From Flavobacteriales bacterium (GTDB lineage: Bacteria; Bacteroidota; Bacteroidia; Flavobacteriales_F; PHOS-HE28), in assembly GCA_026129465.1 (NCBI GenBank), contig JAHCIA010000001.1, forward strand, positions 133,964 through 197,963: DNA of 64,000 nucleotides, read 5' to 3'. Below the pieces are notes generated by a model. That model made no database searches, was not told the DNA's origin, and worked only from the letters and a program-made list of their open reading frames with translations. Below are positions 3,001-42,160 of the stretch, piece by piece; within the stretch, counting starts at the first letter, position 1; each line of letters opens with the position of its first letter. The position numbers were made by a program, and so were the translations under genes.

Positions 3001-3578
3001 GCGGTTATGCCGTGACCATCACCGATGCGAACGGTTGTGTGTTGCAGGTCTCCGGACTTTCCATTGGTGCGGGCCAGGGTCCTGTGGCCGCCTTCTCCCA
3101 TGGACCGGGGCCGGTCGTGGTCGGTACGCCGGTGGAGTTCACCAACAACAGCATCGACATGCAGTCGAGCACATGGGACTTTGGCGATGGGAACGGCTCC
3201 ACCGAACCGGATCCCACGCATACCTACACCATGGCCGGCATTTACACTGTGACGCTGACCGTGAACAATGGCGATTGCACGGACAGTTGGTCCACCGAAG
3301 TGGTCGTGGAACTCAGCACCGGACTTGAGGACATCGGCCCGACGGGGATCACTTCCTGGGCCGCTGATGACCAACTGTTCCTGGACCACGATCTCGAGGG
3401 CGGTATGATGCAGGTGGAGTTGCTGGATGTGGCGGGCAAGCTGCATCATCAGTGGAGCGTTGGTGCGATGCCAGGGCGGGTATCCTTCCCCATGGCTGGT
3501 CTCAGCGCCGGTGTTTGGGTGGTCCGCGTGATCCACGATGGAGCGCAACACACCTTCCGCGTGCCCCTGGTGCGCTGA
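1..3578 (+). CDS. Secreted multidomain protein with T9SS type A tail, 5' end outside window
   Basis: The reading frame is open to the left edge, so the N-terminus and signal peptide are missing. Numbering from the TTG at 33, residues up to about 120 are the end of one domain and about 131-351 a second copy; both contain HVTYRI and end in SWTLAI or AWTLAI, so the protein carries at least two tandem copies of a roughly 200-residue domain. Next come a long beta-rich stretch, two SprB-like repeats (about 865-1020), a PKD domain with WDFGDGNG (about 1025-1100), and a C-terminal T9SS type A sorting domain ending in VPLVR. Known family role: exported through the type IX system to the cell surface or medium. 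The ligand or substrate is unknown. Confidence 0.9.
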   Translation, partial: GPASGDDALSLTTSASERSSHVTYRIRGASGISGSSATNDNANSNPPSHSPAEESYLWIATRSGDAQVVATAPPANYFNMLTVSGGHTDGASTNTAYRIINPAAASEDPVGFTSGTEDWVSWTLAILGPAPVPGTEPIDIPRMASGDGFPVVGATASSAKTTTGSAAHVVDLPVGIQEGDLILVFWTDASNSGTNPVLPGYTQLATSNASTGNVYRKVWYRIADGTEGATVSTSNSFGDRSAHVTYRIAAGTYTGLPYISTNANNTNNAPDPNNLNPGLGVRKYLWLASAHAAESQTFSIPATFSDAVDSRTTASSTSDQHAQVITARRFLEAAQLNVGPFGLGGNATHTAWTLAIQGADGSHATVRNGHVVTVTEDGSVDDLVVESTGLLDISTGSLVINGTSVVVNGSIEGASGHLILGDINEAAILVQGSGSMDLFDLTARTPADVTLEVDLDIRGTLAVRAGDFDATSATVRLISNVDGTGRLDSLVAGTSYTGILTMQRYIPQGATNWRLLGSAVDGQTLQHWKDDFLTAGFPGSHFPNFDMPVGSGILWPSIRYYNETHLGPNPLDGLTGAESITEPLSVGKGWAVWCGDTLGTTAAFTIDVKGPPRIAQTPIALPVSWSNGGTPLVDGYNLVSNPLPSPISFAAIQRGADVENYYWVFNPVDGNNATWNGTVGANGANGIIQSSQGFWLKANGPSVATTVHESAKVSGNTGGIFGGLTTLPPMVRLTLQGNNSFKDEAVVVFQDGTPQLNSGDVPKLSWSSAGAPRIALRSAEGVDLTIDMYGEYTTDISIPVLVQAPSAGTYKVRASDMVGINSLTCLTLVDLVTGTITPLTEGAEYTFSMPASPNTNTPRLLLRASAPLPQYATDATCSDAANGSATVVNIGENAIEVTWSDLLNNVLLVQSDVLGVATFTGLQAGEYNVTVSSDAGCGPLSSIITIDAPDALIADVESTEASCPDAEDGMLTVEAVGGTAPYSYLWDNGGEEAHITGATGGYAVTITDANGCVLQVSGLSIGAGQGPVAAFSHGPGPVVVGTPVEFTNNSIDMQSSTWDFGDGNGSTEPDPTHTYTMAGIYTVTLTVNNGDCTDSWSTEVVVELSTGLEDIGPTGITSWAADDQLFLDHDLEGGMMQVELLDVAGKLHHQWSVGAMPGRVSFPMAGLSAGVWVVRVIHDGAQHTFRVPLVR

Positions 3579-3595
3579 TCGAAGCCACTGCCTGA

Positions 3596-3631
3596 CGAAG
3601 CCCCGCCGAGGTCAACACCGGCGGGGCTTCG
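3596..3631. terminator. Strong hairpin terminator, probably bidirectional
   Basis: A perfect 13-bp stem (3596-3608 with 3619-3631) encloses a 10-nt loop. It lies between two convergent genes, the T9SS-tailed protein (stop 3578) and the CDF transporter on the minus strand (stop 3650), so it probably serves both. Confidence 0.75.
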
Positions 3632-3649
3632 TGTTCTTCGCCATCGCGA

Positions 3650-4645
3650 TCACTGCGGCCCTTGGTCCGCGCGGTGCTTGGCGTCCTGCAATACACTGTC
3701 CAGGTCCCAGTGGATACGATGCAGGAAGGGTGACTTGCGCTCGGGGCAATCCGCCAGGGCGCAGATGCCGCAGGAGCTGGGCACGCAGGGATCCATGTGG
3801 ATGAAGAGCTCCACCGGCCGGGGGCTGCGTTCGTTCACCAGCCGTTCCATGGCGGCGATCTCCGCATGTGCCCGTTCCAGCGGGTAGTACCAGGGCAGCG
3901 TCACATGACAATCGATGTGCAAGGTGCGGCCGAAGCTCACCACGCGGAAGTTGTGCAGGTCCACCCAGTCCGGTCGCCTGGCCGCTTCCAGGATGGCGAT
4001 GGTGGTCCGCGCCGTCACCATGTCCGTCTCGTCCATCATGCCCGCCACCGCTTTGCGCAGCACGCGGAAGCCCTGCACGGTGATGAAGACACCGAAGCCG
4101 GCCGCGAACACACTGTCGATCCAGACCAGGTCCGTGAGCAGGATGAGCACCAGACCGCCGAGCATGGCCACCGTGCTCCATGCGTCGCTGAGCAGATGTG
4201 TGCCACCGGCCACCAGGGTGGGGGAGTGGTGGCGTTTGCCACGCTGCAGCAGCACGAGTCCCATCACCAGGTTGATGGCGCCGGCCAGCGAGGTGAGCAC
4301 GATGCCCTCCTCCAACCGGTGCAACTCGTTGCCCGCCAGGAAGGCCATCGCCGCACGCACCACGATCGCCATACCGGCCAGCATCACCAACGTGCCCTCG
4401 ATGCCCGCACTTATGAATTCCACTTTCCCATGGCCGTAGGGATGCTCACGGTCGCGGGGCTTGCTGGCCAGCACCAGGCTGTACAGCGCGAAGGCACCGG
4501 CCACCACGTTCACGATGCTTTCCAGCGCATCGGCCAGGATCGCCGAACTGTCCGTCCGGTGCCAGGCAAGGAACTTGATGCCCATGAGCAGCGCACCTGT
4601 TCCCAGCACCCAGGCTTGTACACGGATGTCGCCACGCGCCGTCAT
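3650..4645 (-). CDS. Cation diffusion facilitator (CDF) family metal efflux transporter
   Basis: 331 residues starting at ATG 4645. It has the CDF plan of about six membrane segments followed by a cytoplasmic domain. The metal site in the fifth segment is present as HLLSD (HxxxD), but the matching site in the second segment reads ESIVN instead of the HxxxD of zinc exporters or the DxxxD of FieF, so metal preference may differ. The C-terminal tail has a cysteine cluster spaced CX4CX2CX4C (CVPSSCGICALADC) that could bind metal. A Crp/Fnr regulator is divergent from it, with 36 bp between the start codons, so the two may share a control region. The substrate (Zn, Fe, Mn or Co) cannot be fixed from sequence. 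Confidence 0.88.
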   Translation of the reverse strand: MTARGDIRVQAWVLGTGALLMGIKFLAWHRTDSSAILADALESIVNVVAGAFALYSLVLASKPRDREHPYGHGKVEFISAGIEGTLVMLAGMAIVVRAAMAFLAGNELHRLEEGIVLTSLAGAINLVMGLVLLQRGKRHHSPTLVAGGTHLLSDAWSTVAMLGGLVLILLTDLVWIDSVFAAGFGVFITVQGFRVLRKAVAGMMDETDMVTARTTIAILEAARRPDWVDLHNFRVVSFGRTLHIDCHVTLPWYYPLERAHAEIAAMERLVNERSPRPVELFIHMDPCVPSSCGICALADCPERKSPFLHRIHWDLDSVLQDAKHRADQGPQ

Positions 4646-34080: not shown

Positions 34081-34227
34081 GGGGCAAGCTTACGAAGGGT
34101 GCCGTGGAAGGCTGGTGCCTTGGCCTGTACCTTCCCCAAGGAGTGGCCGAACTTAGGGGAAGCTTACACCCGCTCTGGCCAAGCGTGACGCCAAGCGCCA
34201 CCGCCTGGCCGTGGCCGGGTTCCCCCC

Positions 34228-34254
34228 GCTCCCGCGGATCTGCGATCCGTGGTC
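34228..34254. repeat. REP-like hairpin downstream of RAYT gene
   Basis: One copy of the local hairpin repeat in inverted orientation: the palindrome cggatc-tgc-gatccg at 34235-34249 with its flanking gctcccg. It lies 4 bp beyond the RAYT stop and marks the left edge of the repeat-rich region. Confidence 0.75.
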
Positions 34255-34258
34255 CTTC

Positions 34259-34843
34259 TCATTGGATCTCTTGATCATTGAGTACGACTTGGTGATCTGT
34301 GATCACATCCCCCCAGATCGTCTCCAGCTTCAGCATGCCCGGCAAACCCGCCTCATCCCGAGCGCTCGAGTAGAGGTAATGGTGCGGCTCCTCAACCACC
34401 CCCTCTTCCACCGGGTTGCGATGAATGTACCGCAGCTTCTGCTGGATGATGTCCACGCGGCGCAGCCACACGGGATGCAGGTCGTGCTGCCAGAGCTGGA
34501 TGCCGCCATCGGGCTTGCGCAAGTGCGCCAGCAGCCACTCCCTACGGCTCTCCTGCGGGTTATCCTCGATGGCCTTGACCACCGCCTTGGCCGTGAACTT
34601 CTTGTGGTCGCGCAAGATGTCCTGCAATTTGTGGCCGGGACGGGCACGGGCGATCAGATGCACGTGGTTGCTCATGATGCACCACGCGAAGAGCGCCAGG
34701 CCCTTCTCGCGCTGGCAATGCCGCAAGCTCTCCACCACGATGTCCTTATACGCTGGCCGCGTGAACACATCCACCCAGCCCACGGTGGCATAGGTGAGGT
34801 AGTGCAGGTCCTCCTGGTCGTGGATCTTGTGGTTGCGGGACAC
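34259..34843 (-). CDS. REP-associated tyrosine transposase (RAYT), Y1/IS200-like
   Basis: 194 residues from GTG 34843. The start is chosen because the derived N-terminus MSRNHKIHD is also kept in a second truncated copy at 39645-39671 and is typical of the family; an upstream in-frame ATG at 34870 is less likely. The HUH motif is SNHVHLI; the catalytic Tyr is probably in KLRYIHRNPVEEG. Y1 enzymes cut single-stranded DNA at hairpins; RAYTs are domesticated and process nearby REP hairpins instead of moving themselves. Hairpin repeats flank it on both sides and spread through 34.2-40.2 kb, as expected. A -7-like TATCTTCG box lies just upstream. Confidence 0.9.
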   Translation of the reverse strand: MSRNHKIHDQEDLHYLTYATVGWVDVFTRPAYKDIVVESLRHCQREKGLALFAWCIMSNHVHLIARARPGHKLQDILRDHKKFTAKAVVKAIEDNPQESRREWLLAHLRKPDGGIQLWQHDLHPVWLRRVDIIQQKLRYIHRNPVEEGVVEEPHHYLYSSARDEAGLPGMLKLETIWGDVITDHQVVLNDQEIQ

Positions 34844-34908
34844 TGAACGAAGATATCGGTGGCCGATCACAGATCGGCATCAGCATGCGGCCCATGCCTG
34901 AGCCATAG

Positions 34909-35113
34909 GGACCACGGATCAAAGATCCGAGGGAGCCATCAGGGAACATTCGCGCGAGCGGGCGATCAGGGAACATTCGCGGGAGGGGGGGGAGAAGACC
35001 ACGGATCGCAGATCCGCGGGAGCGAACAGGGGACATTCGCGGGAGCTGTTTGAGCTACTGTGGCCACGGATCCAAGATCCGCGGCAGCGTTACAGATCCG
35101 CGCTAGCGGGGGC
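34909..35113. repeat. REP-like hairpin cluster between RAYT and XRE fragment 1
   Basis: It contains three hairpins, at 34915-34929 (loop aaa), 35002-35016 (loop gca) and 35067-35081 (loop caa), each of the form cgg-atc/gat-ccg followed by a gggagc or ggcagc tail, with interspersed acattcgcgggagc and gctagcggggg units. Positions 35024-35110 are repeated without change at 37360-37446. Confidence 0.8.
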
Positions 35114-35117
35114 GGCC

Positions 35118-35360
35118 GTGGACATGGACAAGCGCATGATAGCCCGCTACGAGGCCGACCAAGCCGCGCCGTCCATCCATGCGGCCGCAAGGCTCGCACG
35201 GGCCGCCAGTGTGTCCCTCGACGTGCTGGGCGGACTTGACGCCAGCGACCACGATCCCGAGCTAGGCCGTTTGCTCGCTCAGCTGGCGGCACTGCCGGAA
35301 GCCGACCGCACAGCCGCAAGGCGTGTGCTGGCCGGACTGCTCAAGCTCAACGAAGGGTAG
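35118..35360 (+). pseudogene. XRE-family regulator, N-terminally truncated (fragment 1)
   Basis: The 80-residue frame starts within the second half of a Cro/C1-type HTH: KRMIARYEADQAAPSIHAA is the recognition helix and following turn, then LARAASVSLDVLGG and a C-terminal helical tail. The first HTH helices are absent; the coding match begins directly after a repeat unit (gctagcggggg, 35102-35112). It is best read as a broken gene left after repeat-mediated rearrangement. It might still be translated from ATG 35118, but it could not form a full HTH. Confidence 0.65.
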
Positions 35361-35368
35361 GAAGGCCA

Positions 35369-35416
35369 CGGATCACAGCCGCAGCAGCGATCAGGGAAGA
35401 TTAGCGGGAGCGGGGG
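35369..35416. repeat. Degenerate REP-like element at the end of cassette A
   Basis: A decayed hairpin (cggatc-aca-gccg, from 35369) is followed by agattagcgggagcgggggg (35398-35417). The repeat runs into the partner gene of RHS cassette A and supplies its last codons and stop. Confidence 0.55.
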
Positions 35417-35898
35417 GTGTAGTGGGCCGGGAACCGCTTCTTCCGAAGGATAAATCGCCGCTCCTTTGTCGAAGGTGTATACTTCACTACGTCCATTCTG
35501 AAGGCCATCTCGTCAAGACACTTGAAGCCTTCCAGCTTAAACATCTGCTTGGTGCTGGTGTTGATCGCGACCAAGAACTCAGTGTTCACCTCATGATTCA
35601 GCCTAATGCGCACACTGGTTGTATCCGGAACTTGACGCCCCGTCATCATCTCATTGGTCATTGCACAGAATACATAATTCACCGGATATCCCTTGGCTTG
35701 AACGAAGTGATATCCGTATCGCCATGTGCCGTCAATGAAGCCTTGTACTTCTTCTTGGGGACGCATTGACATTTCATAAGCGTCCGTAAGCAAGAGCATG
35801 CGTGCATTGAAGAAGATAAAGGCTGTGTCCAATCCTTGGGCCTGCACATAACCACAGCACATGTTCAGGGAAGCCAGCAATACCAGCGGCGCTCTCAT
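35401..35898 (-). CDS. Exported protein downstream of RHS tip A (possible immunity/partner)
   Basis: 165 residues with a signal peptide (MRAPLVLLASLNMCCGYVQAQ). The mature part has no recognised family and contains WRYGYHFVQAKGYPVNYVF. The ATG overlaps the stop of the RHS gene (ATGA), so the two are translationally coupled, the arrangement of toxin/immunity pairs. Since it is exported and the RHS tip looks like a metalloprotease, periplasmic protection is possible but unproven. The final residues (TPRSR) and stop are encoded by the neighbouring repeat, so the natural C-terminus may have been altered. Base composition is less GC-rich than in the flanking core genes. Confidence 0.65.
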   Translation of the reverse strand: MRAPLVLLASLNMCCGYVQAQGLDTAFIFFNARMLLLTDAYEMSMRPQEEVQGFIDGTWRYGYHFVQAKGYPVNYVFCAMTNEMMTGRQVPDTTSVRIRLNHEVNTEFLVAINTSTKQMFKLEGFKCLDEMAFRMDVVKYTPSTKERRFILRKKRFPAHYTPRSR

Positions 35899-37229
35899 GG
35901 CCGGACGAATCCAGAAGGCATTAAGCCACGTGACCTTTCCAGTGCCTTGTACCTACGCTCTTCCTCATCCGCCGCCTGACCACTTGGGTCCCCCGGGCCG
36001 TGGTGATCCTCAAAAGCAGCATTGGGATTAAGACGCTGCCATTGGGTATGTTCCATCATATTATGAACCAAGTACATAACATGGCCTTTCTCATGGGCTA
36101 CTGTTAGAGCCGTAGTCTTACGAGCAAGAGACACATGCACCGTATTATCTCCATGTCTGGATTTGATCGTGTAATGAGAGAAGACACCATCTTGGAATGT
36201 GTATACGTTCGCATGGACTTCGCTCTTCCCATGATGTCCTCCACCTGTCTGCATGCCCCCCCCATCCGTCATTTGCGCAAGCGTCACGACCATTGATGGG
36301 TCGATACCAACGAAGACATCTACTACGTTGCCAGATGGATCCATCAGGTTGTCAAGCTGTGAATAGCCCTCCGGATCGGTGAATGCGTACTGATTCAGAA
36401 ACTGCTCGACGGCATTGAAATTTTCCGTCGCCGTCGAAAGAGCAGACTCTGCGCTTTTCAGGGCGCCCCTAGCATCCTTGACAGCAGCCTGATATCCTTT
36501 ATAGGCCTCCTTGTTTCCCTTATCCACAGGGCTTGCAAGTAGGCCGTCAAGCTTACCCTTCGCATCGTCGCGATTCTTTTGAGCCGCATCCTTCTCCTCC
36601 TTATGAGAATTTTTGACCTTCAGACCATTGGGGTCAACTAATACTATTGGATTGTTTGAGAAAACGGCATAAGGACTTTCGCAAGACCTTGACATTGGAT
36701 CAATGTTCCATCGCCGTCCCACCCTCGGATCGTACTGCCAGAACTCAGCGGTGTAGCTGGTGCCTTCGCTTCCGTACACCTCATTATCCTTTTCTTGTCC
36801 GTTGAACCCGAACCTGTACGCGTCACTGCTGTAATTGCGTCCTGGCAGCAGGGAGCCGAAGGGTTCATACCCCTGTGCGGAGATCACCTCGGCTTGGAAG
36901 GGGCTGCCGGCCCCGGCACCATCCAGCAGGCGCCCGGTAACAACCGTGGTCACGTTGCCCAGGTGGTCGGTCAACTCATAGCGCAAGCGCGCCGCAGGGA
37001 TCGGTTGCGGATGCGGCCCCGGCATGGTGGTTAGCCCGTAGAGCTCCGCCTCACGCGTATAAGTGCCCAGGCGGCTGCTGCCATACAGGTGCCGCTCGGT
37101 GACCTTGAAGCTCATACTGCCGGTGTTCTGGTATCGGTACACGGCCATGATGTTGCCTTGTGCATCACGAATGTAGTGCTCGCGGTAGCCGGTGAACTGC
37201 AGGACCTCTTCCACATCGTGGACCTCCAT
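35895..37229 (-). CDS. RHS core fragment with metalloprotease-like C-terminal tip (cassette A)
   Basis: 444 residues. Positions 1-200 are the end of an RHS repeat protein: [14 protein letters not shown], then [10 protein letters not shown], and the core boundary YDPRVGRRWNIDP with PYAVFSNNPIVLVDP. After it come a helical linker (about 208-280) and an unrelated tip with HEKGH at 379-383, the HExxH zinc-protease motif. No signal peptide and no upstream YD repeats are present, and the shared 5' part is a duplicated segment, so this is an orphan cassette, not a full RHS gene. Expression may need recombination with a full-length RHS gene. The tip is more AT-rich than the core. Confidence 0.82.
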   Translation of the reverse strand: MEVHDVEEVLQFTGYREHYIRDAQGNIMAVYRYQNTGSMSFKVTERHLYGSSRLGTYTREAELYGLTTMPGPHPQPIPAARLRYELTDHLGNVTTVVTGRLLDGAGAGSPFQAEVISAQGYEPFGSLLPGRNYSSDAYRFGFNGQEKDNEVYGSEGTSYTAEFWQYDPRVGRRWNIDPMSRSCESPYAVFSNNPIVLVDPNGLKVKNSHKEEKDAAQKNRDDAKGKLDGLLASPVDKGNKEAYKGYQAAVKDARGALKSAESALSTATENFNAVEQFLNQYAFTDPEGYSQLDNLMDPSGNVVDVFVGIDPSMVVTLAQMTDGGGMQTGGGHHGKSEVHANVYTFQDGVFSHYTIKSRHGDNTVHVSLARKTTALTVAHEKGHVMYLVHNMMEHTQWQRLNPNAAFEDHHGPGDPSGQAADEEERRYKALERSRGLMPSGFVRP

Positions 37230-37359
37230 GAGGCACGCAAGGCGCTGAGCAACTGAACCACAGGGCCAGCGCTACCCCATGGCCGGTTGCAAACTGGCCG
37301 CAAGGCCTATCCCTTGGCCGGGACCGGATGAGGACCACGGGTCGCAGACCCGCGGGAGC
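36857..37359. repeat. Direct repeat copy A (RHS core 3' segment and upstream flank)
   Basis: About 500 bp, matching copy B (39116-39618) with a single difference seen (37332 g, 39591 a). Copy C (41727-42060) shares the first 334 bp with only a few changes near its left end. The repeat covers both coding RHS core and, in A and B, about 130 bp upstream of the start plus the first hairpin, so whole segments were copied or converted. Confidence 0.9.
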
Positions 37360-37450
37360 GAACAGGGGACATTCGCGGGAGCTGTTTGAGCTACTGTGGC
37401 CACGGATCCAAGATCCGCGGCAGCGTTACAGATCCGCGCTAGCGGGGGGG
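37331..37450. repeat. REP-like hairpin cluster between RHS A and XRE fragment 2
   Basis: Hairpins lie at 37338-37352 (cgggtc-gca-gacccg) and 37403-37417 (cggatc-caa-gatccg), followed by gctagcgggggg. In the first, the central A-T pair of the usual stem is replaced by G-C on both arms. With the 39597 copy this is the only stem change, and it keeps pairing. Positions 37360-37446 duplicate 35024-35110. With the adjoining duplicated flank it fills the otherwise gene-free 37230-37549. Confidence 0.8.
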
Positions 37451-37549
37451 GGCATCGCCCGAAAATAGCACTCGGAGTTCTCCCATCTCGCAGGGTCCCC
37501 TCGTGCCTCGGGAGACCCTGCGGAGGTCTGGGTCTCCACCGATTACCTC

Positions 37550-37714
37550 ATGAGCGGCAACAGCGCCGACCTGGCCCAGGAGAGCATTCAGGACAAGGCC
37601 CTGATCAACCTGTTCCAACGCGTGCAACGCCTGGAACCTGCCGAGCGCGATGTGGTCACTTCCTTGCTCGATGCCTTCCTGTTCCGACAGGAGACCAAGA
37701 AGCAACTGGCCTAG
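37550..37714 (+). pseudogene. XRE-family regulator, C-terminal remnant (fragment 2)
   Basis: 54 residues from ATG 37550; the matching frame extends back to about 37532 (VSTDYLMSG), the usual end of a Cro/C1 HTH domain. The tail (DKALINLFQRVQRLEPAERD to ETKKQLA) is the C-terminal helix region of this regulator class. The whole HTH is missing. Upstream lies a repeat cluster ending near 37450. It is clearly a remnant. Confidence 0.6.
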
Positions 37715-37768
37715 CAACGGGCCACTGATCGCAGGACCTGTCCCGCCTTAGCGGGATCAGCGGCAGGC

Positions 37769-38125
37769 CTAGGGAAGGCGGCGCGATTGGACCTTGGCGC
37801 CATGTACGTAGTAGCCATCTTCTCTTAGAGCGCCTTGGCCGTCGTAGATCTGATAGTATCCGAGTAATCGGCCTTTCTTTAGGTAACAGCGCATCTTGAT
37901 GAGACCGGAGCGGTCGAGTATGAGGTAGGCCCCGCTGAACTTGGCCTTGTAGCGGATGACCTCGATGCCTTGCGGGAAGACACTGCAATAAAGAGTGTCA
38001 GAGCCAACCAGAAGAGCGGCGTACATGCCATCGGTGGCCGGGAGTGATTTGGTGAACGAGAAGACCTGGCCATGGGCCTTGGCGCTTACATAGAGCAACA
38101 GGATCGTAGCTATCCACTTGGTCAT
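37769..38125 (-). CDS. Exported small protein downstream of RHS tip B (possible immunity/partner)
   Basis: 118 residues with a signal peptide (MTKWIATILLLYVSAKAHG). The rest resembles short MORN-like or toxin_YwqK-like repeats (YLKKGRLLGYYQIYDGQGALREDGYYVHGAKV), but the match is weak. It starts 7 bp after the stop of the RHS B cassette, so it is very likely cotranscribed. Immunity function is inferred from position only. Confidence 0.65.
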   Translation of the reverse strand: MTKWIATILLLYVSAKAHGQVFSFTKSLPATDGMYAALLVGSDTLYCSVFPQGIEVIRYKAKFSGAYLILDRSGLIKMRCYLKKGRLLGYYQIYDGQGALREDGYYVHGAKVQSRRLP

Positions 38126-38132
38126 GATACTG

Positions 38133-39488
38133 CTACTCGAAGTCTTCGCGCGTACTCTTTCCCTTTTCAGGATCTACCCGATCCATCAGCTCATCCTTCT
38201 GATAGAAGTCGTTGTAATCGTGCTCGATCTGCATGATGTTGCCAACCTTCTTTGGGTCAACACCGAAGAACTTGGCCTTGAACTCGTCACTGAAACGCGT
38301 GTGGGACTTGTTCCATCCTTCATGTGCAGCCTGATGCTCAAGGTCAATGAACCCAGCACCATACTTCTGATCAAAGACCTTCACTAAGTCCTCGCCAAAA
38401 GTGCCATTAACAAAGTTCCTAGCAAACGCGAGCGCGTACTTGACATGAACGGTAGACTCATGGCCTGCTGTGTGGTAGATCGCGATCAGGTCACCTTGTA
38501 CCATGTCATAGGTGCCGTCCTCCTTCTTTCCTATCGGTTGGTTGGTACTAACGTTCACGTACTGCAACATATGAGTCTGCGCGCTCATCTTGCGAACATG
38601 ATCAGGTGTTAGGTCACTGCCGTTCACGTATTGACCATCAACAGCGAAGAAGGCCGGAGATGAACCACCTTGGTCTGGATCTATGCCAAAGCGAACGGTC
38701 ACGTTATCGTGAAGGCTACCCTTACCACCTGCATCTCCCCAGAACTTGCGAGCCTGCCGCGCATTCACCACATCACGATAGATCTCCTTTCCTGACTCGG
38801 ACTTGATGTACGAAAGCGTTGCCTTGTACACCGAAGGGCTGAACAGCCTCATCGCTAAACTGAACTTCAATCGTTCCCCATCGGGATCGACGAACATCAA
38901 TGGAGAGTTCGCAGCGAAGCCATAGGGAGTGGCATCCGGGTAGCTCGTAGCGTAGGGATCCATGCTGAGCCAGCGGCCAACCCTCGGATCCAGAATACGC
39001 GATCCGAAGTTGTAAGACGTTCCAGTTGAACCGTGAACCTCATCGTCCTTCTCGGCTCCATTAAATCCGAAGCGGTAGCTCGATGAGCTGTAGTTCCTCC
39101 CTGGTAGAAGCGACCCGAAGGGTTCATACCCCTGTGCGGAGATCACCTCGGCTTGGAAGGGGCTGCCGGCCCCGGCACCATCCAGCAGGCGCCCGGTAAC
39201 AACCGTGGTCACGTTGCCCAGGTGGTCGGTCAACTCATAGCGCAAGCGCGCCGCAGGGATCGGTTGCGGATGCGGCCCCGGCATGGTGGTTAGCCCGTAG
39301 AGCTCCGCCTCACGCGTATAAGTGCCCAGGCGGCTGCTGCCATACAGGTGCCGCTCGGTGACCTTGAAGCTCATACTGCCGGTGTTCTGGTATCGGTACA
39401 CGGCCATGATGTTGCCTTGTGCATCACGAATGTAGTGCTCGCGGTAGCCGGTGAACTGCAGGACCTCTTCCACATCGTGGACCTCCAT
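38133..39488 (-). CDS. RHS core fragment with unknown C-terminal tip (cassette B)
   Basis: 451 residues. The first ~135 residues are the same as in cassette A, then come the core boundary LDPRVGRWLSMDP and PYGFAANSPLMFVDPDG. The tip (about 205-451) has no recognised family. It contains AGHESTVHVKYAL and HQAAHEGWNKSH, His/Glu-rich segments that could be catalytic, but no standard nuclease or protease motif. There is no signal peptide or YD-repeat shell, so it is an orphan C-terminal cassette. Confidence 0.78.
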   Translation of the reverse strand: MEVHDVEEVLQFTGYREHYIRDAQGNIMAVYRYQNTGSMSFKVTERHLYGSSRLGTYTREAELYGLTTMPGPHPQPIPAARLRYELTDHLGNVTTVVTGRLLDGAGAGSPFQAEVISAQGYEPFGSLLPGRNYSSSSYRFGFNGAEKDDEVHGSTGTSYNFGSRILDPRVGRWLSMDPYATSYPDATPYGFAANSPLMFVDPDGERLKFSLAMRLFSPSVYKATLSYIKSESGKEIYRDVVNARQARKFWGDAGGKGSLHDNVTVRFGIDPDQGGSSPAFFAVDGQYVNGSDLTPDHVRKMSAQTHMLQYVNVSTNQPIGKKEDGTYDMVQGDLIAIYHTAGHESTVHVKYALAFARNFVNGTFGEDLVKVFDQKYGAGFIDLEHQAAHEGWNKSHTRFSDEFKAKFFGVDPKKVGNIMQIEHDYNDFYQKDELMDRVDPEKGKSTREDFE

Positions 39489-39618
39489 GAGGCACGCAAG
39501 GCGCTGAGCAACTGAACCACAGGGCCAGCGCTACCCCATGGCCGGTTGCAAACTGGCCGCAAGGCCTATCCCTTGGCCGGGACCGGATGAAGACCACGGG
39601 TCGCAGACCCGCGGGAGC
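39116..39618. repeat. Direct repeat copy B (RHS core 3' segment and upstream flank)
   Basis: Second copy of the ~500-bp segment described at 36857-37359, almost identical including synonymous positions and the non-coding flank. Confidence 0.9.
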
Positions 39619-39644
39619 CATCAGGGAACATTCGCGGGAGCGGG
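39597..39644. repeat. REP-like hairpin upstream of RHS B
   Basis: Hairpin 39597-39611 (cgggtc-gca-gacccg, the G-C variant) is followed by gggagccatcagggaacattcgcgggagcgggg in two units. It ends exactly where the RAYT remnant begins. Confidence 0.7.
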
Positions 39645-39708
39645 GTCGTGGATCTTGTAGTTCCTGCTCACTGATCGAAAGTAGGGCACGCCGATCACAG
39701 ATAGGCTG
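39645..39708 (-). pseudogene. Remnant of a second RAYT gene (5' end and upstream region)
   Basis: On the minus strand GTG 39671 opens MSRNYKIHD, matching the RAYT N-terminus MSRNHKIHD, and then stops matching at the repeat boundary at 39645. The upstream ~37 bp also align with the sequence before the intact RAYT gene (gccgatcacagat shared). By eye about 47 of 61 bases agree, so it is an older, diverged copy rather than a recent duplicate. Confidence 0.7.
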
Positions 39709-39740
39709 TAGCGCTACGGCTCCAACTCGGTGATGGAAGA

Positions 39741-39840
39741 AGACCACGGATCAAAGATCCGAGGGAGCCATCAGGGAAGATTAGCGGGAGCGGGGTGCTA
39801 CAGATCCGCGTTAGCGGGGGGAACATTCGCGGGAGCGGGG
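39741..39840. repeat. REP-like hairpin cluster upstream of XRE fragment 3
   Basis: Hairpin 39747-39761 (cggatc-aaa-gatccg) is followed by agattagcgggagcgggg, cagatccgcgttagcggggg and acattcgcgggagcgggg units. The last unit ends 6 bp before the XRE fragment's ATG. Together with the duplicated flank, hairpin 39597 and the RAYT remnant it fills 39489-39845. Confidence 0.75.
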
Positions 39841-39845
39841 TGAAG

Positions 39846-40130
39846 ATGTCCCAGGAGGATCTGGCCAAGAAGCTCGGCATCCACGCCCCGATCATCGGCC
39901 GGTACGAGCGTGGTGAGGTGAAGCCTTCGATCGAGGTCGCCGCCAAGCTCGCCCAGGCCGTCGGCTCGTCGCTCGACTACCTCACGGGTCTTTCGGATCT
40001 GCAGCTGGACCAGGAGCTGATCGCCCGGATCAACGACCTGCACACGCTATCCGAGGAGGATCAACAGCACATCATGCGCACACTCGGCGCGTTGATCCGC
40101 GAGGCCAAGACCAGGAAGGCGTTCGGGTAG
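39846..40130 (+). pseudogene. XRE-family regulator lacking its first helix (fragment 3)
   Basis: 94 residues from ATG 39846: MSQEDLAKKLGIHAPIIGRYERGEVKPS is an HTH from its second helix on, followed by LAQAVGSSLDYLTG and a helical tail. Family members normally carry about 15 more residues (first helix) upstream; here a repeat unit stands in that place. An in-frame GTG at 39795 would add repeat-encoded residues only. It may be partly functional, as the recognition helix is present, but truncation is more likely. Confidence 0.6.
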
Positions 40131-40133
40131 GGC

Positions 40134-40176
40134 GGGTCCGCAGATCCGAACCAGCTACATCCGTGCTAGCGGGGGG
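40134..40176. repeat. Degenerate REP-like element at the end of cassette C
   Basis: A decayed hairpin (gggtc-cgca-gatcc, 40135-40147) is followed by gctagcgggggg (40165-40176), which supplies the last residues (SPR) and stop of the partner gene of cassette C. Confidence 0.55.
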
Positions 40177-40813
40177 ATATCTCAAACTCTGGCGAACCTT
40201 GAGCACCGAGTACAGGCATCTCTCGAATAAGCTGCTCATATAGGGTATAGTCTAGAGCGGTGAACCCCTGCCCTTTGAGTATTTCCAAGTATCGCAGTGC
40301 GTCCTCTTGACCATTCAGCATTGCACGAATCATGAGCACTTGGCCTGCATTCTGTTCATCCGGAAGGCTCTTCGCCTTGTTCTCGGCTTCACGAATCGCA
40401 ATCGCTTTTAACCGCTCATACTCTTGGGTCTTGCCAAGGAAGTAATTGCACATGGCTTCGTTAGCGAGCAACAAAGGCACTGGAGTCGGAGACATTGACT
40501 TGAGCTTGTGAAGGACGGGGATGCAGTCACCGTAATGCCCAATTGCGTAAAGTATCGTGAACTTGTTGTGGAGCGCTTGGTAGTAGTTCGTATCGCAATG
40601 GATGGCCCTGTCGATCAAGACGACCGCTGAGTCGAGTGACTCGTGGCGAGTAGTATCCATCTGATAGCTCACAAATGCCTCCATGGCCTGATTATTCAAC
40701 TCCTTACAATCCTCTCCAGCACTAGCGTCTTCGGAAGCCATAGAGCATGCGGACCAAGTCGCCAAGCACATGCCTGCCATTAGTGATACACTCCTCATGG
40801 CCGACAAATTCAT
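40166..40813 (-). CDS. Lipoprotein downstream of RHS tip C (possible immunity/partner)
   Basis: 215 residues from ATG 40813, which overlaps the TGA of the RHS C gene. The N-terminus ([25 protein letters not shown]) is a plausible lipoprotein signal, with the Cys near residue 23. The remainder is alpha-helical with tetratricopeptide-like spacing ([29 protein letters not shown]). Position suggests a partner of the RHS tip; no activity can be assigned. The terminal SPR and stop codon lie within the repeat. Confidence 0.65.
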
Positions 40814-42081
40814 TGGATTTTGGGGGCAACAATGAATGAGTCGCTTGAAGAATTCGGTACGATCCCGATTGTACCGGGCATCGCGGGTTGGAACCAACTC
40901 CCGTGCGCTTCTACAAGCACTCTTGTTGTGACGGATACACGATAGTTCGGAAGCAGCCCTTTAGAATCGGGTGGGGCCAAGTCGAACTCAGCCGCGCCAA
41001 TGTATCCAGCGGGAGCAAAGTACGATCCTTTGGGTGCTTGCAAGTCCTTGCGAGCAACAACATCTCCTGAGGCGTTGTACAAAGTCGCTGTTGAAGACGC
41101 GCGGACTTTTGATCCGTCTGACACTACGATTGGATCGACATAAGTCGAAACGCGAAGCTTTGGCGCACTCTTCGCGCCCGTGACCTGTGCCGAAGTATTT
41201 ACAGTCCAGACTACTTGCTTGTACTGCACATGAGGGCCTTCGGCATCCGGGACCTGCCCCCATTGACGGTTCTGCACAGGTTGCTCGCCACTAGAAGGGC
41301 TAACCTTATAGGTCTGCTCGGTTGGTGGTGTGAGTGTCTGACCAAGCGCTGGTGGTGCATTCCCGGCGTTGGTGCCCGGATTTCGTTTGAAGGCAGCGCC
41401 TGCGTGATCACCTGTACCGCTGTTGATGCCGCCTTGTCCATCCGGTCCAGCCTCAGAGACTTTATCAGGGGTTGGAGCGGCCTCCAGTCCTTCCAACTCC
41501 ACCATGTCTATCACACGGTTCTCACTGAACGCGTAAGGCGAGTTCCAAGGGTACTTGGCTGCCAGCGGGTCGATGCTCATAAACCTGCCAATCCTCGGAT
41601 CGTGCATTCGGTACTCGAACGCGTAGCTCGTGCCCGTTGAGCCGTTGATCTCGTCGTCATGTTCTTGACCTTGGAAGAGGTAACGATATGACCCTGAGGA
41701 GTAATTCCTTCCTGGCAGCAGACTTCCGAAGGGTTCATACCCCTGTGCGGAGACCACCTCGGCCTGGTAGGGGCTGCCGGCCCCGGCACCATCCAGCAGG
41801 CGCCCGGTAACAACCGTGGTCACGTTGCCCAGGTGGTCGGTCAACTCATAGCGCAAGCGCGCCGCAGGGATCGGTTGCGGATGCGGCCCCGGCATGGTGG
41901 TTAGCCCGTAGAGCTCCGCCTCACGCGTATAAGTGCCCAGGCGGCTGCTGCCATACAGGTGCCGCTCGGTGACCTTGAAGCTCATACTGCCGGTGTTCTG
42001 GTATCGGTACACGGCCATGATGTTGCCTTGTGCATCACGAATGTAGTGCTCGCGGTAGCCACCATTGTCCGGGTCGCCCAC
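40810..42081 (-). CDS. RHS core fragment with unknown C-terminal tip (cassette C)
   Basis: 423 residues if read from GTG 42081, but RHS similarity ([20 protein letters not shown]) runs on upstream in frame to about 42159, directly beside the stop codon of the OmpA-type gene, where a TGA closes the frame. The gene is thus cut at its 5' end and has no credible start or signal. The core boundary is [13 protein letters not shown] with [18 protein letters not shown] Pro/Gly-rich linker and a beta-rich tip of unknown family follow. It is an orphan cassette like A and B. Confidence 0.75.
41727..42060. repeat. Direct repeat copy C (RHS core 3' segment)
   Basis: Third copy of the RHS core segment. 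It matches copies A and B over 334 bp with about three changes near the left end (around 41753-41768), then diverges upstream into a different RHS sequence. Confidence 0.9.
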
Positions 42082-42160
42082 CGTCTTGGAGATCCGCTGG
42101 CCGCTCGCCCCATAGCCGAACTGCAGGGAGGGGCCGCCGGACTTGGTGACGCTGCGGACT

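Follow-up and report, generated by a model that had tools for sequence, protein, structure and literature searches.

We identified an array of 3 orphan Rhs modules in a 64,000-nucleotide stretch of DNA from a Flavobacteriales bacterium (GenBank assembly GCA_026129465.1, contig JAHCIA010000001.1, forward-strand positions 133,964 to 197,963), hereafter the window, whose own positions are used throughout. The array is probably a transplanted set of orphan Rhs tip/immunity genes, placed as one 8.1-kb block between otherwise adjacent genes, in which repetitive extragenic palindromic (REP) sequences would be the points where cassettes break and rejoin. Orphan Rhs tip/immunity arrays are of a known kind; the new aspect is the recurrence of REP sequences, REP-associated tyrosine transposase (RAYT) genes, and XRE genes at the junctions.

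The whole array is an insertion, since the DUF1573 gene and the peptidase-E-like gene on its 2 sides are only 3-34 bp apart in 12 of the 12 congeners inspected and are parted here by 8,080 bp (34081-42160). At 42160 the stop codon TAA of the DUF1573 gene abuts Rhs core sequence, and the core of module 3 ends abruptly. The pentamer CGTAA is present at both insertion ends and could reflect microhomology or a target duplication of 5 bp; counted once, it would leave a 9-bp gap between the flanks, matching G009, G010, G037, and G040 (G000 is the genome under study, other G numbers are genomes compared, and L numbers are loci fetched). The window sits on a contig of 3,862,203 bp in an assembly of 3,875,355 bp in total, a nearly closed genome, and the G+C content of the tip stretches is ~0.49-0.56 vs 0.63 for the window.

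Each of the 3 minus-strand modules runs core-tip, partner, and convergent XRE fragment, with palindrome clusters between the modules and the RAYT gene at the low-coordinate end. The block and its Rhs and partner genes are as follows.

34081..42160, no strand given: whole inserted block, with the RAYT gene and 3 Rhs tip/partner/XRE modules (spacing of the flanking genes in 12 congeners)
35401..35898, minus strand: partner 1, candidate immunity gene, 165 amino acids (aa), signal sequence (open reading frame [ORF]; no family match)
35895..37229, minus strand: orphan Rhs 1, core stub (~36690-37190) and tip 1 with HEKGH motif (~35895-36640) (TIGR03696, 36.3 bits)
37769..38125, minus strand: partner 2, candidate immunity gene, 118 aa, signal sequence (ORF; no family match)
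38133..39488, minus strand: orphan Rhs 2, core stub and tip 2 (TIGR03696, 49.0 bits)
40166..40813, minus strand: partner 3, candidate immunity gene, ~215 aa, signal sequence, TPR-like (weak TPR_17 match)
40810..42160, minus strand: orphan Rhs 3, longest core stub and tip 3, the stub cut at the outer insertion edge (TIGR03696, 40.4 bits)

The 3 copies of the shared core are 96-97% identical over 300 bp, all 3 ORFs passed the TIGR03696 model (Rhs_assc_core, cut-off 32.5 bits), and orphan Rhs 3 includes 52 aa of upstream core at the outer edge. Pairwise BLASTP comparison of tips 1-3 gave no match of one to another, and no toxin model in Pfam or NCBIfam was reached by any of them. Orphan Rhs 1 had a weak Reprolysin_5 match (E = 0.25), and the PDB sequence search with it returned Rhs-core matches only (TcdB2-TccC3 and similar chains), together with a chance cytochrome match. 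The partner genes overlap the tips or directly follow them, and their N-terminal signal sequences were assessed by eye; no family match was found for partners 1-3 apart from the weak TPR similarity of partner 3, which has distant matches in G196 and G250. No match was confirmed in GTDB genomes searched with tips 1 and 2 joined, and tips and partners had no homologue in 44 congeners and weak matches only in 395 genomes of the class. An earlier note on this DNA had described 3 minus-strand modules built on one plan, which is confirmed by the shared core, the unrelated tips, the adjacent partners, and the convergent XRE parts. Its further claim of a repeat cluster in every module holds for modules 1 and 2 and fails for module 3, which has no REP cluster upstream and whose core stops at 42160.

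The core occurs 3 times in the genome, and every copy is inside the array. The genome lacks residues 1-600 and 3231-3880 of the full-length Rhs protein of a congener, the sole match being the 52-residue stub of module 3; the one RHS_repeat match, found in a frame of 295 aa at 2.44 Mb, matched neither the core nor the full-length queries. Core matches were identified in 20 congeners. Full-length Rhs proteins of ~4,280-4,380 aa are encoded in G009 and G002, with an Rhs frame of 4,280 aa in G005 (3,594 aa of it read) and one of 3,744 aa in G025, and some congener full-length genes carry orphan cassettes directly after them (e.g., G009). The full-length gene sharing this core that the earlier note had proposed to look for therefore exists in congeners and not in the strain's own genome. 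Shorter cassettes, their Rhs part beginning near one 18-residue stretch, were found in G004, G006, G018, G020, G026, G032, and G042. One set of chromosomal genes precedes those in G020, G032, G042, and G026, and a second site is common to G004 and G006. None of the tips compared at these shared sites resembles another, which argues that cassettes were exchanged within the genus and is comparative evidence for tip replacement at fixed sites. The reading of the modules as orphan tips is thus supported by the full-length Rhs genes of congeners, which share this core, and by the unrelated tips found at one chromosomal site in different species; that they form a donor bank serving a resident gene, also proposed earlier, is unsupported here, since a full-length Rhs gene carrying this core, and hence a recipient, is missing from the genome.

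The full-length Rhs protein of G009 (L040:4193-17035; 4,280 aa) has a signal peptide and, close to its N-terminus, a DUF6443 domain, as well as a Ycf48/BNR-type segment (~residues 2400-2900). The tip of an orphan cassette in G026 (L051:8095-8877) matches JAB-like toxin 1 (PF15659) at a borderline level.

The RAYT gene and the palindromes of the array are listed below.

34227..34254, minus strand: REP palindrome in inverse orientation to those across the RAYT gene (inverted repeats, 28 bp, 100% and 89%)
34259..34870, minus strand: RAYT (HUH transposase), 203 aa, apparently intact (NF047646, PF01797)
34903..35115, plus strand: REP cluster 1, with a 116-bp block that recurs at 37333-37448 (98%)
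37281..37299, no strand given: leader palindrome GGCCGGTTGCAAACTGGCC upstream of core 1, adjoining RAYT genes in G005, G008, and G033
37330..37451, plus strand: REP cluster 2, a 97% copy of 34994-35115
39540..39558, no strand given: leader palindrome upstream of core 2, same as at core 1 (palindrome comparison)
39585..39840, plus strand: REP cluster 3 with the relic of a second RAYT gene (repeat analysis)

The RAYT passed the NF047646 model (REP_Tyr_transpos; 92.4 bits, cut-off 80), and its motifs NHVH, WQ, and YIHRNP, read from the sequence, resemble those of subclass 2.6 (PMC6006769); NHVH and WQ are common to that subclass, with YIHRNP here vs YIH[QN]NP there. Inverted copies of the palindrome CCACGGATCnnAGATCCG flank the gene. 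The relic in REP cluster 3 spans 63 bp (39644-39706) and shares 78% identity with the RAYT gene's 5' end, marking a second, decayed RAYT between modules 2 and 3. At the cassette junctions, REP palindromes meet cut core on one side and cut XRE on the other. Allowing up to 3 mismatches, CCACGGATCnnAGATCCG has 13 sites genome-wide, of which 8 are in the array, and a backward control pattern has 0; these counts are of the G000-type palindrome only, and G002, G004, and G008 have palindrome types of their own. Among the sites outside the array, one adjoins another 2 RAYT-like genes (3.309 Mb) and one a RAYT fragment (2.756 Mb). At G000:C1:3047575-3047662 there are 2 REP copies, with no RAYT detected in the 16 kb fetched there (L133). 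The earlier description of the modules as bounded by RAYT-processed repeats stands as anatomy, which recurs in related loci; processing by the RAYT is hypothetical.

The association of RAYT with Rhs extends beyond the array. In the genus, 5 of 39 RAYTs have an Rhs core within 3 kb vs 0.086 expected (P ~4e-8, or ~2e-6 without G000), the RAYT being always on the Rhs strand, with RAYT and core matches picked by E-value cut-offs among the matches listed. Independence is limited in this comparison, as related species share some associations and G000, removed in one test, was the starting point. In the GTDB collection, 5 of 78 Rhs loci carry a RAYT, all on the same strand and downstream of the Rhs stop within ~2.5 kb; 3 of these are new (Terrimonas pollutisoli, L250; Hyunsoonleella ulvae, L239; Flavivirga amylovorans, L266), and the other 2 (L194 and L195) are G002 and G005 again. 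The RAYT position alone is weak evidence because this downstream zone holds 45% of the non-Rhs bases in the GTDB loci, and the weight of the link is carried by strand, recurrence, and tree. Rhs-linked RAYTs are scattered in a tree of 37 RAYTs, where strongly supported branches force at least 4 changes of Rhs linkage; shuffled labels are only a little more scattered (mean 7.4 changes vs 6). The nearest relatives of the array's RAYT (G002, G008, G025, and G032) have a close palindrome variant nearby, yet no adjoining Rhs core. Further, the RAYT of G002 and that of G004 adjoin one repeat family common to both, and the palindromes by the RAYT in G008 also precede an orphan core.

At L168 (G033:C251), on a short contig, units of palindrome and Rhs core 5' part, fused and without tips, are found around a RAYT. 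The Hyunsoonleella and Flavivirga loci (L239:10972-11739 and L266:10737-11525) share the order Rhs, partner, and RAYT, as well as a similar ~260-aa protein.

Three XRE 3' parts are found on the plus strand of the array, each missing a different 5' length beside a REP cluster.

35118..35360, plus strand: XRE1, 5'-truncated, convergent to partner 1 (HTH_3 partial; XRE profile E = 1.6e-25)
37526..37714, plus strand: XRE2 remnant, C-terminal part only (XRE profile positions 39-96, E = 1.4e-16)
39846..40130, plus strand: XRE3, RstR-like, without the first helix (copy in G004; NF041951)

Many XREs in the genus have likewise lost the 5' end at a palindrome and kept the 3' end. XRE3 scored 76 bits against the RstR family model NF041951, under its cut-off of 80, which intact XRE relatives in G026, L249, L262, and L159 exceed. 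XRE3 and its G004 copy (L100:11675-11962) are 94% identical in DNA over 288 bp and have the same truncation point, with unrelated tips adjoining, and their 17 differences in 285 bp comprise 15 synonymous and 2 non-synonymous changes. From this pattern, XRE3 seems to have been shared by species recently and to be under purifying selection despite its lost first helix; either the short form may be functional or the truncation may have come after long selection. All 3 genes are truncated as the earlier note had it, and its word "broken" may overstate the case of XRE3 given these substitutions and the shared truncation. Homologues of XRE3 are few in the genus, most of them at Rhs cassettes on the opposite strand and usually right after the partner; XREs are found at Rhs cassettes in G000, G003, G004, G006, G009, G018, G020, G026, and G032. 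In other Bacteroidota, such an XRE is downstream of and opposite to Rhs in L249, L259, L262, L269, L270, and G069, at a more variable distance.

In the explanation that we propose, the core stubs would provide homology usable for recombination, the tips would be open but probably silent toxin tips, and the partners would be exported candidate immunity proteins, as their position and the known systems suggest. At present the array could serve the strain only as an immunity reserve, because the strain lacks a full-length Rhs gene that carries the core. The tips would become usable if the strain acquired a full-length Rhs gene and a core stub recombined with it, as has been reported for the Salmonella orphans (PMC3967940). 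The REPs, perhaps nicked by the RAYT, would be the points where cassettes are added, lost, and exchanged. Some points weigh against this explanation. The outer end of the block at 42160 has no REP, so the block does not have the REPs at both ends of a RAYT-mobilised element; the AlphaFold single-sequence predictions for tips 1 and 2 are poor (pLDDT, the predicted local distance difference test, of 51 and 36), leaving toxin folds unproven; and REP or RAYT may merely accumulate in weakly selected DNA. The last point leads to a rival that we hold to be a serious possibility, if not the favoured one, in which the REP/RAYT and XRE fragments are passive debris in an ordinary, insertion-tolerant orphan array under weak selection. 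REPs are found at RAYT genes outside Rhs loci as well, 34 of the genus's 39 RAYTs have no Rhs core nearby, and published CDI (contact-dependent growth inhibition) orphan arrays are likewise interrupted by insertion sequence elements (PMC3150448). Debris would, however, leave several regularities unexplained: the RAYT is constantly on the Rhs strand, REP palindromes are at both cassette boundaries, Rhs linkage changes at least 4 times on the RAYT tree, the position and orientation of the XRE are constant across families, and XRE3 appears to be under purifying selection.

That the RAYT moves cassettes, excising REP-bounded core-tip-partner-XRE units and inserting them single-stranded in the manner of a transposon, we regard as quite unlikely. 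Near-identical REP blocks (98% over 116 bp) bound modules 1 and 2, the relic of a second RAYT is at another junction, and REP-core fusions occur in G008 and G033. Against this, the absence of a REP at 42160 argues that the RAYT did not move the whole block, and CGTAA at both ends, if a direct repeat, misfits the HUH mechanism, as HUH transposition leaves no target duplication; we also know of no RAYT shown to carry cargo. Movement by the RAYT, which the earlier note had offered alongside the boundaries, is accordingly no more than a hypothesis. It is very improbable that the array is what remains of a full-length Rhs locus once resident here, decayed after its gene body was deleted. The abruptly cut third core would fit such a remnant, but nothing is found between the flanking genes in congeners and the Rhs loci of congeners lie elsewhere than this insertion site, by which it is largely refuted; we rejected it on the empty site. 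The transplanted array with REPs as break and rejoin points thus remains our preferred explanation. A stronger version, in which RAYT and REPs in Bacteroidota are working parts of Rhs arrays that set cassette boundaries and make the breaks for tip gain, loss, and swap, seems unlikely; if true, a domesticated HUH transposase would have taken part in the evolution of polymorphic toxins.

It is unclear how cells benefit from RAYTs, domesticated transposases that are widespread, and the gain and shuffling of spare tips is mostly credited to homologous recombination. A recurrent link between RAYT and Rhs would join these 2 questions of tip shuffling and RAYT benefit. We searched the open literature for such a link and found none, and recurrent REP/RAYT and a convergent RstR-like gene at orphan Rhs arrays were not in the literature searched. 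Orphan rhs-CT/rhsI and cdiA-CT/cdiI pairs (Poole 2011, PMC3150448; Koskiniemi 2014, PMC3967940) likewise consist of a core stub, an unrelated tip, and a candidate immunity gene, with no delivery region. The core of the Salmonella orphan is 95% identical to the full-length gene over 522 bp, compared with 96-97% identity over 300 bp among the 3 copies here. Orphan immunity genes can be functional, and recombination can fuse tips to full-length genes in CDI/Rhs loci (PMC3150448, PMC3967940); the mechanisms of more complex tip exchanges were stated to be unknown (Poole 2011, PMC3150448). Unlike the known Rhs/CDI orphans, the array is in a genome without the full-length gene, forms an inserted block, and has REP/RAYT and convergent XRE genes at its junctions. 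REPtrons of RAYT subclass 2.6 (group 5), found mostly in Bacteroidetes, likewise have inverted palindromes flanking the RAYT and copies elsewhere, and subclass 2.6 RAYTs are reported with atypical structures (PMC6006769). In contrast to REPtrons, the palindromes here are concentrated inside a toxin cassette array. The array XREs differ from RstR repressors in being 5'-truncated, and the array shows no filamentous phage genes, whereas XREs near Rhs partners match the RstR-family repressor model (NF041951); this RstR-like gene, convergent to the partner, recurs at Rhs cassettes as a second neighbour.

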